A stretch of 58,651 nucleotides of DNA from Phycisphaerales bacterium. Its GTDB lineage: Bacteria; Planctomycetota; Phycisphaerae; UBA1845. A program made the position numbers and the translations under genes. The stretch lies in the NCBI GenBank assembly GCA_013140575.1, contig JABFSN010000219.1:1-58651 (forward strand), read 5' to 3'. The number at the start of each line of letters is the position of its first letter. Within the stretch, counting starts at the first letter, position 1. The notes under the pieces were generated by a model, which did no database searches, was not told where the DNA came from, and saw nothing but the letters and a program-made list of their open reading frames with translations. Of the stretch, positions 4,559 through 39,612 are shown piece after piece.

Positions 4559-4567
4559 TGCTATGAT
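4559..4567 (+). promoter_or_regulatory. Extended -10 promoter for a candidate ncRNA
   Basis: TG-C-TATGAT is a near-perfect extended -10 element (TATGAT at 4562-4567). Upstream, weak T-rich matches at about 4538-4544 could act as a -35. The predicted start of transcription is near 4573-4574, exactly where a stem begins (see the ncRNA entry). Confidence 0.55.
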
Positions 4568-4572
4568 GATGC

Positions 4573-4810
4573 GTGTCGCCAAGATCGGGTTCTGCCGTAC
4601 GCGACAGGGAGCCTTTTTGCGCTGAACCTATCGTAGAACCCGGGAGGCCGTGATCGGAAGTGCAAAAACATGCCCGCTTGTCGGGACTTCTGCGCACCCT
4701 GCCGGCCACCCACGTTGCATCAGGGTTCTGCCAATTTCTCCCATCGGCACGTGCGGATCCGGGCTTGGGACTTGAGGGCTTGCCGTTTTGACGACAAGCC
4801 CCTTTTTTTT
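4573..4810 (+). ncRNA. Candidate structured non-coding RNA of about 237 nt, class unknown
   Basis: An extended -10 promoter and an intrinsic terminator bound this segment, and no credible ORF with a ribosome binding site lies inside. Visible helices are TGTCGC (4574-4579) with GCGACA (4601-4606), AGAACCC (4635-4641) with GGGTTCT (4723-4729), GGCCG (4646-4650) with CGGCC (4703-4707), GAAGT (4657-4661) with ACTTC (4686-4690), and a short CCCG/CGGG hairpin inside. The 10-mer GGGTTCTGCC occurs twice (4587-4596 and 4723-4732), and both copies can pair with the one AGAACCC, so two exclusive folds are possible. I see none of the signature motifs of SRP RNA, tmRNA or RNase P RNA. 6S RNA or a novel class remains possible. 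Confidence 0.5.
4776..4810 (+). terminator. Rho-independent terminator
   Basis: GGGCTTG (4776-4782) pairs with CAAGCCC (4795-4801) around a short loop and is followed by eight Ts (4803-4810). It ends the candidate ncRNA; no plus-strand protein gene lies just upstream. Confidence 0.8.
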
Positions 4811-4874
4811 GCGCCTTCGGCGTCGCGTCGGCCTCGCCGGTGTACGTGGTTCGCGGTCGCGACGGCGTTTCCTT

Positions 4875-4976
4875 CGCCCCTGCCGGGGCGGGATTCCATG
4901 TGCGTCGGCATCCACGGGTTGCGCGATGCTGCGCATCGCTCCACCCGTGGCTACCGTCCGCCGCCCCGCCGGGGCG
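4875..4976. repeat. Composite GC-rich palindromic repeat
   Basis: The inner hairpin pairs CCACGGGT (4912-4919) with ACCCGTGG (4943-4950) and contains GCGATGC/GCATCGC as a second stem. Flanking arms are CGCCCCTGCCGGGGCGG (4875-4891) and CCGCCCCGCCGGGGCG (4961-4976). This type of non-coding repeat is common in planctomycete intergenic regions. It lies in the leader of the downstream GlmU-like gene. Confidence 0.65.
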
Positions 4977-5098
4977 AAATCACGTGCAGGACACGAACCG
5001 GCGCTATTGGTCGCCGGCCACCTGTTGATCCCGCGCCCGCATATCTGCCGATGGAGTTCGCGTGCGGCCGCGACGGCCGCGATGTATATTGACCCACC

Positions 5099-6388
5099 AT
5101 GACGCGAATCATCTTATTTGAAGACGCAGCATTCGCCGACCTGCTGCCGTTGACCTACTGGCGATCGGTGTTCGAGCTGCGCTGCGGGCGCCGGACGTTG
5201 TTCGACCGCTGCGCGTCCCGTTGGGGGGTCGCGCCCGTCGGCGTGCTGACGCGTTCGTGGATCGCGAACGTGGCGGCCGACCGGCTGGGCCTTCCGGTCA
5301 ACGAACCGCTTGAGCCCGGCGACGTGCTGATCAACCCGCGCTGGTTGCCGGAACGCGGGACGACGCTTCCGAAACCGCCGTTTCTGGGAACGTGCGAGGA
5401 CGGCATCGCCTGCATCGTATGCGACAAGGCGTTGGCCGCCCTGCTGGGTCCGCAGGATTTTCTGGATCGCAAACGCTGGTCGGAATTGATCGAGCAGATC
5501 GGCCGGGCATCCCTTCCGGGCGCGATGATCGGCTACCCGTGGGATCTGGTGTTGCGCAACGGTCAACTGATCGCGGAGGACTGGCGGGCGTCGGACGCGG
5601 GCATCGCCGGCGACGTACACGCGTCGGCCGTGCTGATCAATCGCGACGCGATCCACGTGGCGCCCGGCGCTCGCGTTCAGGCGATGGCGTTGCTGGACGC
5701 GAGCGACGGCCCGGTGATCGTGGAAAAGGACGCGGTCATCGGTTCGCACGCGGTCGTCGTTGGACCGGCGTGCGTGGGCGAACGTTCGCTGGTCAAGCCG
5801 CACGCGTTCCTGCACGGGGGCAGCAGCATCGGACCGGTGTGCAAGGTGGCCGGCGAGGTGGATGCCTGCGTGTTCGACGGCTATTCGAACAAGGCCCACG
5901 ACGGGTTTTTGGGGCACTGTTACGTGGGCAGTTGGGTGAACCTGGGCGCGGGGACCACCAATTCCGATTTGAAGAACACGTACGGCACGGTCCGCGTGCC
6001 CATCGGCGGCAAGGAGGTCGATTCGGGGCAGATGTTTTTCGGCGGAGTCGTCGGCGATCACGTCAAGACCGGCATCCAACTGGCGTTGACCACGGGCAGC
6101 GTCATCGGTTTCGGCGCCAACGTGGCGTGCAGCCGCATGCCGCGGACGTTCGTGCGTTCGTTCAGTTGGGTGACGGATCGCGGCGTGGAGGAGGGCGACG
6201 TGCGGCGGTTGGCGTCCACCGCGGCGACGGTCATGGCGAGGCGGAACGTGACGATGACCAAATCCGAATCCGATTTGTTCAACAAGCTGCCCGAGATCGT
6301 GGCCTATTTCGAGCCCGACGTCATCGCCCACCGGGCGGCGTACGAATCGAGTGAACATCGCGGTCAGGCGAAACCGGTGACGCAGTGA
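5099..6388 (+). CDS. GlmU-like sugar nucleotidyltransferase/acetyltransferase
   Basis: This 429-aa protein matches the alternative GlmU family, with an N-terminal pyrophosphorylase-like half and a C-terminal left-handed beta-helix built of hexapeptide repeats. It starts MTRIILFEDAAFADLLPLTY and contains the family marks LPLTYWRSVFELRCGRRTL and, in the helix, CYVGSWVNLGAGTTNSDLKN and GTVRVPIGGKEVDSGQMFFG. The family is thought to make UDP-N-acetylglucosamine or a related activated sugar for cell-envelope polymers. The N-terminal half diverges from classical GlmU and lacks a clear LAAGxGTRM loop, so the nucleotidyl step is less certain than the acyltransferase fold. It is a single gene; the next gene begins 64 bp later. 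Confidence 0.85.
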   Translation: MTRIILFEDAAFADLLPLTYWRSVFELRCGRRTLFDRCASRWGVAPVGVLTRSWIANVAADRLGLPVNEPLEPGDVLINPRWLPERGTTLPKPPFLGTCEDGIACIVCDKALAALLGPQDFLDRKRWSELIEQIGRASLPGAMIGYPWDLVLRNGQLIAEDWRASDAGIAGDVHASAVLINRDAIHVAPGARVQAMALLDASDGPVIVEKDAVIGSHAVVVGPACVGERSLVKPHAFLHGGSSIGPVCKVAGEVDACVFDGYSNKAHDGFLGHCYVGSWVNLGAGTTNSDLKNTYGTVRVPIGGKEVDSGQMFFGGVVGDHVKTGIQLALTTGSVIGFGANVACSRMPRTFVRSFSWVTDRGVEEGDVRRLASTAATVMARRNVTMTKSESDLFNKLPEIVAYFEPDVIAHRAAYESSEHRGQAKPVTQ

Positions 6389-8786: not shown

Positions 8787-10016
8787 TCATGTGCCGCCGC
8801 CCAATCCGTACCGCAGATACAACCACGCCGCGCAGATCAGCAGCGTGACAACGGTTACCGGTATGCCCACGCGGGCGTGTTCGCTCCACGACACGCGAAT
8901 GCCGCGATGGGCGGCCTGGTCGACCACGATGATGTTGGCGATGCTGCCGACGATCAGCAGGTTGCCGGCCAGCGTGCTGGACAGCGCCAGCAGCGAACCG
9001 GCCATCGGCGAATCCGCGAACGGCAGGAGCAGCATGACGGCGGGTACGTTGGACACGACGTTGGACAGGACCGACGTGGTAACGAACAGATCGGCCGGGC
9101 GGTGCAGGTTGATGCCGGCCGAATGCAGTGCCGCGGCCATTTGATCGAGCCCGCCGGCTTTCTGAAACGCGTGGTTGACGATGAACAGCCCGGCAAACAG
9201 GACCAGCAATTGCCAGTCCACCAACGCCAGCATCCGCCGGGTGTGCATTTTCCGGCTGGTCAGGATTACGCTGGCCGCGGCGAGCGCGGCCAAATCCTGC
9301 GGCACCGAAGTGAACAGGAACAACGCGACCAGCACGGTCAGGACCACCAGTCCCTTGCCGGTTTGCCAGGCGTTGAACGGGGCGGCGTCGATGTGCACGT
9401 CGCGCGGCTCCTCGTGCCATCGGTCCCGAACCGATCGGCAGATGACATACCATGTCACCCACAGCCCGATCGCCGACGGCACGACCGCATCCGCCAGGTA
9501 ACCTGAAAACGACAGCCCCATTCGCTGGCCGATCAGGATGTTCTGCGGGTTGCCGATCAGCGTGGCGGCCGATCCGACGTTGGCCCCGCAGGCGAGACCC
9601 AGCAGGAACGGCGTGGGCTTCAGACCGCGGAGCAGGCACGCCTCGATAATCAGCGGCGTCATGACGATGCAGATCACGTCGTTGGCCAGGACGGCCGACA
9701 GCGATCCCGCGGCCAGAATGACCAGCGCCAGGACGGCGTTCGGACCGGCGTGGGTGTTGGCGATTCGCCGGGTGACGGCGGTGTAGAATCCGCCGAGGCG
9801 GAATTGGGCCGAAACCACCATCATGGCAATCAGCAGGGCCGTCGTCGGCACGTCGATCGCCGTCCATGCGGCCGGCGGCGTGATCCGACCCGTCGCCAGC
9901 AGGGCGATCGCGCCCAGTAGGGCGACGCCCGTGCGGTCCAGCGCCAGACCGGGCAGGCGGCCGAAAAACATGCCGGCATAGACGATGATAAACGTGACGA
10001 GAACGACGCCGTCCAT
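8787..10016 (-). CDS. ArsB/NhaD-superfamily ion transporter
   Basis: This 409-aa polytopic protein has about 11-12 hydrophobic segments. The motifs SAVLANDVICIVMTPLIIEAC and NVGSAATLIGNPQNILIG are typical of the ion-transporter superfamily that includes ArsB, NhaD and citrate carriers, and a second half repeats the pattern (VLSNVVSNVPAVMLLLPF). Substrate cannot be told: arsenite, sodium/proton or dicarboxylate are all possible. The ATG at 10016 is preferred to a GTG three codons upstream. It starts 28 bp after rnpA on the same strand and may be cotranscribed with it. Confidence 0.85.
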   Translation of the reverse strand: MDGVVLVTFIIVYAGMFFGRLPGLALDRTGVALLGAIALLATGRITPPAAWTAIDVPTTALLIAMMVVSAQFRLGGFYTAVTRRIANTHAGPNAVLALVILAAGSLSAVLANDVICIVMTPLIIEACLLRGLKPTPFLLGLACGANVGSAATLIGNPQNILIGQRMGLSFSGYLADAVVPSAIGLWVTWYVICRSVRDRWHEEPRDVHIDAAPFNAWQTGKGLVVLTVLVALFLFTSVPQDLAALAAASVILTSRKMHTRRMLALVDWQLLVLFAGLFIVNHAFQKAGGLDQMAAALHSAGINLHRPADLFVTTSVLSNVVSNVPAVMLLLPFADSPMAGSLLALSSTLAGNLLIVGSIANIIVVDQAAHRGIRVSWSEHARVGIPVTVVTLLICAAWLYLRYGLGGGT

Positions 10017-10044
10017 GCATTCCACCCGCCGACGGATGCGTCGA

Positions 10045-39370: not shown

Positions 39371-39528
39371 AATGTAGCCCCGTGTTCCAACACGGGTACA
39401 CCGGCGCGATGAAGACGCCGAGTCCCGAAGGGACGGCTGAAACGCTGCGCTCGGCTTCAGCCGTCCCTTCGGGACTGGCGGAATCAAAAACGGCGTGTCA
39501 TCCCAGCACTGAAGTGCTGGGCTACATT
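39371..39528. repeat. Nested palindromes between gcvT and gcvH
   Basis: The outer arms AATGTAGCCC (39371-39380) and GGGCTACATT (39519-39528) enclose three hairpins: CCCGTGTT/AACACGGG (39379-39396), a perfect 21-bp stem at 39421-39441 with 39456-39476, and CCCAGCACT/AGTGCTGGG (39502-39521). On minus this lies in the gcvT-gcvH spacer and would fold in the transcript. Confidence 0.8.
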
Positions 39529-39612
39529 CATCCCGTCCCCGCGGGACGCCAGACACTTATGCGTCGGCGACGTTGGTGTCAAACGACGTCTTCATCCCTT
39601 TCGGTGTTCGTT

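Follow-up and report, generated by a model that had tools for sequence, protein, structure and literature searches.

Small non-coding RNA gene on the forward strand, with promoter-like and terminator-like sequences of its own, upstream of a gene for an alternative GlmU. The window, i.e., the whole stretch of DNA analysed, comprises 58,651 nt of contig JABFSN010000219.1 (assembly GCA_013140575.1, Phycisphaerales bacterium). 6S RNA is a small RNA that mimics an open promoter and thereby blocks bacterial RNA polymerase. Judged by sequence comparison, the segment 4574–4811 almost certainly encodes the 6S RNA of the source bacterium, the degree of confidence applying to 6S membership. The RNA class is already known; the strong, co-evolving switch described below is the new part. 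The features of the locus are listed in Table 1.

Table 1. Features of the 6S RNA locus, in window positions. A1 is an alignment of 51 sequences, the window and 50 relatives selected by RF00013.
Feature	Position	Strand	Basis
Extended −10 element (TATGAT, TG upstream)	4562–4567	+	Sequence scan; count of −10-like hexamers across members
Predicted primary 6S RNA transcript	4574–4811	+	Putative start 7 nt after the −10 element
Core match to Rfam RF00013 (6S RNA)	4586–4763	+	Model positions 1–187, 45.9 bits, E 4.8e-8
5′ strand of closing stem P1 and GGGAG helix (partner 4738–4756)	4592–4614	+	A1 columns 21–43 with 211–230
5′ strand of helix P2, predicted template for product RNA, ending in GAACC (4624–4628)	4617–4628	+	Alignment, pair counts
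Putative product-RNA start, template U	4631	+	Alignment by eye with E. coli U44
Distal 5′ central bubble GUAGAACCC, 5′ strand of collapse helix	4633–4641	+	Duplex, covariation and masked-fold tests
Distal arm GGGAGGCC ... GGCCACCC with terminal hairpin	4642–4711	+	A1 pair counts
Shared 3′ strand GGGUUCUGCCAA (P2, 4724–4734; collapse helix, 4723–4731)	4723–4734	+	A1 pairs, duplex and masked-fold tests
3′ strand of GGGAG helix and P1	4738–4756	+	A1 pair counts
Intrinsic terminator (GGGCUUG...CAAGCCC, then U tract)	4776–4810	+	Fold; terminators in 42/87 members
Alternative GlmU gene (TIGR03991), downstream neighbour in conserved synteny with the 6S gene	5099–6388	+	Profile match, flanks of relatives

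In a relaxed-threshold cmscan of the window, the RF00013 match spans all 187 model positions; the runner-up Rfam family over the same stretch reaches 22.5 bits. The score lies 0.5 bits short of the RF00013 gathering score (46.4 bits), and the standard Rfam scan of the window at the gathering cut-off does not report the 6S stretch for this reason. Because the gathering score is a curation threshold and not a biological feature, the RNA was filed as 6S despite the missed cut-off. The first-pass annotation, which had called for such a covariance search, had seen no signature of the common housekeeping RNAs. In this it was wrong, and a novel RNA class was rejected on the full-length match. Shared with 6S RNA/SsrS (RF00013) are that match, the rod with a central bubble, the single gene and its own promoter and terminator; unlike it, the window sequence has diverged to just under the cut-off.

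Of 100 relatives, 60 have an RF00013 match at E ≤ 0.01, and 29 of these score above the gathering cut-off; in a phylum sample of 294 genomes, the model matches 129 at E ≤ 0.001, with 81 above the cut-off. Whole-genome search with RF00013 gave no match in the source genome, though cmscan gives the same bases 45.9 bits. This miss is taken to be due to the first filter of the search tool, so the counts among relatives and phylum are lower bounds. 6S RNA is poorly recorded in planctomycetes in the literature searched, yet it is matched at the above frequency; a paper on Thermogutta found no 6S RNA and cites a survey reporting its absence in two relatives (PMC5673643). The lineage model R1, built from the A1 sequences, matches 91 of the 100 relatives, nearly always in one copy, and gave no match in 9/100. 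In the source genome it finds one convincing copy (4572–4777; 126.6 bits, with the window itself among the training sequences); a second paralogue was discarded, R1 giving only a scrap (E 6.56). R1 in turn matches all 40 of the 6S RNAs that were drawn from the RF00013 hits across the phylum, so the two models describe one family. One relative (G082) carries two strong 6S genes (L073 and L020; 161.0 and 160.6 bits), and the collapse helix described below is present in both RNAs. Within one genus (G028, G063, G070 and G073) the R1 match is confined to the middle of the RNA, e.g., model positions 48–166, suggesting from sequence that the closing stem has diverged there.

Promoter-like and terminator-like sites are frequent by chance around 4562–4811, and 0.6 sites like the extended −10 element are expected by chance in the scanned region. 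The family was therefore counted as a set of 87 sequences from 86 genomes (R1-positive G017, G028, G069, G070 and G073 left out). A TATAAT-like hexamer lies 5′ of the first helix in 62 of the 87 members, window included (9.9 expected by shuffling), mostly 25–31 nt upstream of it. By fold of the window RNA, the terminator consists of a hairpin at 4776–4801 and a U tract at 4803–4810. The strict terminator script, which requires a perfect stem, made no call in the window; over the members it made 42 calls in 87, versus 1.5 in shuffles. The extended −10 promoter, the terminator and a compact non-coding transcript at 4573–4810 with two alternative pairings, all proposed in the first-pass annotation, were thus upheld, with the ends about right. 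The helix it placed at the start site (TGTCGC/GCGACA) was not: an exact equivalent is kept in only 1 of 51 A1 sequences, and this 5′ hairpin was dropped as a conserved element. The single-sequence folding energy of the window RNA beats shuffles only modestly (z −1.83; 9 of 200 shuffles as good), and the structural case is for this reason built on the relatives.

The gene downstream scores 333.5 bits against TIGR03991 (cut-off 225.3); its closest named match is in a Phycisphaerae MAG, which points to that class as the probable origin of the window. In 38 of 86 relatives a GlmU-type gene of the same orientation starts 12–327 nt downstream of the 6S gene, and in one more it starts at 1155 nt; the downstream flanks extended over 390 nt in the shortest matching locus and about 1500 nt at most, and the misses include truncated loci. 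The weakest R1 member (L136, 46.8 bits) has the same neighbour and is thereby independently supported. In two MAG contigs (L049 and L050), the available sequence flanking the GlmU-type gene showed no 6S RNA. Directly 3′ of the terminator, positions 4850–4990 hold a dispersed palindromic repeat with at least 42 matches in the source genome (78–100% identity; 40 of 134 candidates scored). Folded as DNA, this repeat is far better than shuffles (z −4.36); it is possibly a REP/MITE-like element.

RNAalifold recovered only 14 pairs from the raw A1 alignment because the closing stem is gapped, so the structure was written by hand from the RF00013 alignment and its pairs were counted. The hand-written 6S fold pairs 86.6% of 2128 cells in A1, versus at most 52.3% in slid-structure controls. 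Changes on both sides occur in 27 of 42 pairs over the 51 sequences, and double-change cells number 229 versus 79.6 in shuffles, in relatives selected by a model that favours the pairs of P1 and P2 and not those of the collapse helix. Covariation supports the closing stem, the wide bubble at the centre and the terminal arm, and the comparative alignment proposed in the earlier annotation thereby returned a conserved fold. The product-RNA start of E. coli is named as U44 in PMC8876501. In the window RNA, product RNAs would be expected to start AUAGGUUC, and the predicted 14-mer from U4631 is AUAGGUUCAGCGCA.

As had been noted, there are two copies of GGGTTCTGCC (4587 and 4723) and a single AGAACCC (4635). 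The accompanying claim that AGAACCC switches between the two copies stood for one copy only. AGAACCC forms the distal end of the 5′ central bubble, and the second copy, which can pair with it, is the 3′ strand of P2; the first copy would take no part. A complement of the distal bubble is found in the 3′ strand in 39 of 51 A1 sequences and in the 5′ strand, at the first GGGTTCT copy, in 5 of 51, so the first copy is regarded as chance, and pairing of both copies with AGAACCC was discarded. The counts support, as the true alternation, P2 versus a central bubble collapse helix that would use only the second GGGTTCT copy.

According to PMC8876501, product-RNA synthesis on the 6S RNAs of B. subtilis and A. 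aeolicus opens P2, whose 3′ strand then joins the distal part of the 5′ bubble in a new helix; the pairing is termed the 'central bubble collapse helix'. The P2 3′ strand is likewise complementary to the distal 5′ central bubble in the window and its family. The alternative helix is thus built as in B. subtilis 6S-1 and A. aeolicus 6S (PMC8876501), but in the window family the GAACC that ends the 5′ strand of P2 recurs in the distal bubble. The resulting duplex is about as stable as P2 (means over the 87 sequences, −12.70 and −12.09 kcal/mol, respectively), the Bacillus and Aquifex RNAs being compared by description. E. coli 6S (ssrS) is of the same fold class, with corresponding strands GAGCCGAU/GGGTTC, but its distal 5′ bubble complements the 3′ P2 strand poorly (−4.3 kcal/mol); its release is described as using a hairpin of the 3′ bubble instead (PMC8876501).

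In 47 of 51 A1 sequences the duplex of the collapse helix is better than at least 95% of its shuffles. Among sequences outside the R1 training set, 34 of 36 pass this test, and a re-run over eight families gives 82 of 87 (5/87 fail). The inner columns of the helix barely vary in A1, where the GAACC core is nearly invariant; because P2 and the collapse helix share one strand, conservation of this core says little. At the outer pair, A1 columns 73 and 199 form a standard base pair in only 21 of the 51 sequences, and the outer end of the helix is therefore loose. The discriminating position is the base after GGTTC, parsed in 61 of 87 sequences (26 dropped for unmatched patterns). In 46 of the 61, this base pairs with the one immediately 5′ of the distal GAAC[CT]C (TA 13, AT 12, CG 11, GT 6, GC 4), a value as high in 0 of 2000 within-family permutations, which leave some relatedness in; pairing with its P2 partner occurs in 28 of 61 and was reached by 130 of 2000 permutations. 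Over the whole segment, pairing energy averages −12.70 kcal/mol with the own partner versus −11.35 kcal/mol with same-family partners (0 of 5000 permutations). For the phylum, 40 of the 129 RF00013 hits were compared, mostly high-scoring, six of them from the same class as the window. Of these 40, 10 pass the shuffle test for the collapse helix, whose mean energy over the 40 is −6.0 kcal/mol versus −9.5 for P2; the contrast with the window family would be inflated if the bubble boundaries, taken from the R1 alignment, are off. The strong collapse helix looks like a feature of one order of Phycisphaerae. Comparison of sequences shows that the RNA belongs to the 6S family, that it has the 6S ground fold and that the alternative helix is conserved.

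For the folding test, a product RNA of 9 or 14 nt was imitated by barring from pairing the template bases that it would cover, counted backwards from 4631; kinetics and protein were ignored. The free fold of the window RNA contains P2; with either mask the minimum-energy fold contains the collapse helix, the refolding costing 3.4 to 4.2 kcal/mol. P2 is present in the free fold in 45 of 51 A1 sequences and 28 of 36 sequences outside R1. Under the 14-nt mask the collapse helix forms in 42 of 51 and 30 of 36, respectively, versus 5.7 and 3.3 with the distal bubble shuffled; no refolding to it was seen in 15 of the 87 sequences in this model.

Polymerase binding, the start and synthesis of product RNA and the release are inferred by analogy with the 6S family. 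The rod-shaped fold would imitate an open promoter and sequester the housekeeping sigma-RNA polymerase. Upon a rise in NTP, the polymerase would copy backwards from 4631, and the short product RNA so made would displace P2. Once free, the 3′ strand GGGUUCUGC (4723–4731) would snap onto GUAGAACCC (4633–4641) in the distal 5′ central bubble, and the collapse helix so formed would close the central bubble and drive release of the polymerase. The alternative fold is best read as a release collapse helix maintained by selection in the lineage (probability about 0.8), and the release switch as described is rated the same. The two-fold switch has apparently been kept by selection across an order of planctomycetes.

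Several other readings were weighed. The RNA could be a true 6S RNA whose collapse helix is a roleless by-product of the conserved GGGUUC/GAACC motif, as the nearly invariant GAACC core (which says little by itself), the non-independence of relatives and the flanking pair of columns 73 and 199 (21/51) would allow; but the flanking base co-varies with the distal bubble beyond permutation (46/61) and not significantly with P2, own partners pair better than same-family ones, and other planctomycete 6S RNAs are largely without the helix, which makes a by-product unlikely. Release might also proceed as in E. coli, through an extended (9-bp) hairpin that forms in the 3′ central bubble once P2 is open, with the 5′-bubble helix secondary. 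Many relatives do carry CCUU(G)...AAGG, possible short hairpins, beside GGUUC in the 3′ bubble (seen in A1, uncounted), but the masked fold sends the 3′ P2 strand to the 5′ bubble in 72 of 87 sequences, and this route is considered quite improbable.

An unrelated structured RNA merely resembling 6S, such as a GlmU-linked sRNA or leader, would fit the conserved place upstream of the alternative GlmU (38/86) and the RF00013 score just below the cut-off. Such an origin is extremely unlikely given the match over the complete model, the 6S cut-off being passed in 29/100 close relatives and 81/294 phylum members, the agreement of R1 with 40/40 phylum-wide 6S RNAs, and the terminator that stands between the RNA and the GlmU-type gene.

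With the release collapse helix as the preferred reading, the comparative data provide evolutionary support for a helix otherwise described, in the available literature searched, from Bacillus and Aquifex work only. They also offer a natural series of strong switches for testing how 6S RNA lets polymerase go. It is suggested tentatively, as a rather doubtful extension, that in this order of Phycisphaerae the near-copy of the P2 end in the bubble makes the RNA nearly bistable, that co-evolution balances the two folds and that product RNAs of ~9 nt may flip them. If true, the 6S release switches of one order of Phycisphaerae would be unusually sensitive.

Elsewhere in the window, an ARAGORN tRNA-Thr call at 9411–9484 (minus strand) is probably false, because it lies inside a well-supported citrate-transporter-type gene (8787–10025) on the same strand. 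Positions 39502–39548 match the Rfam Acido-Lenti-1 RNA (RF01687) at 39.8 bits, above the cut-off of 37.
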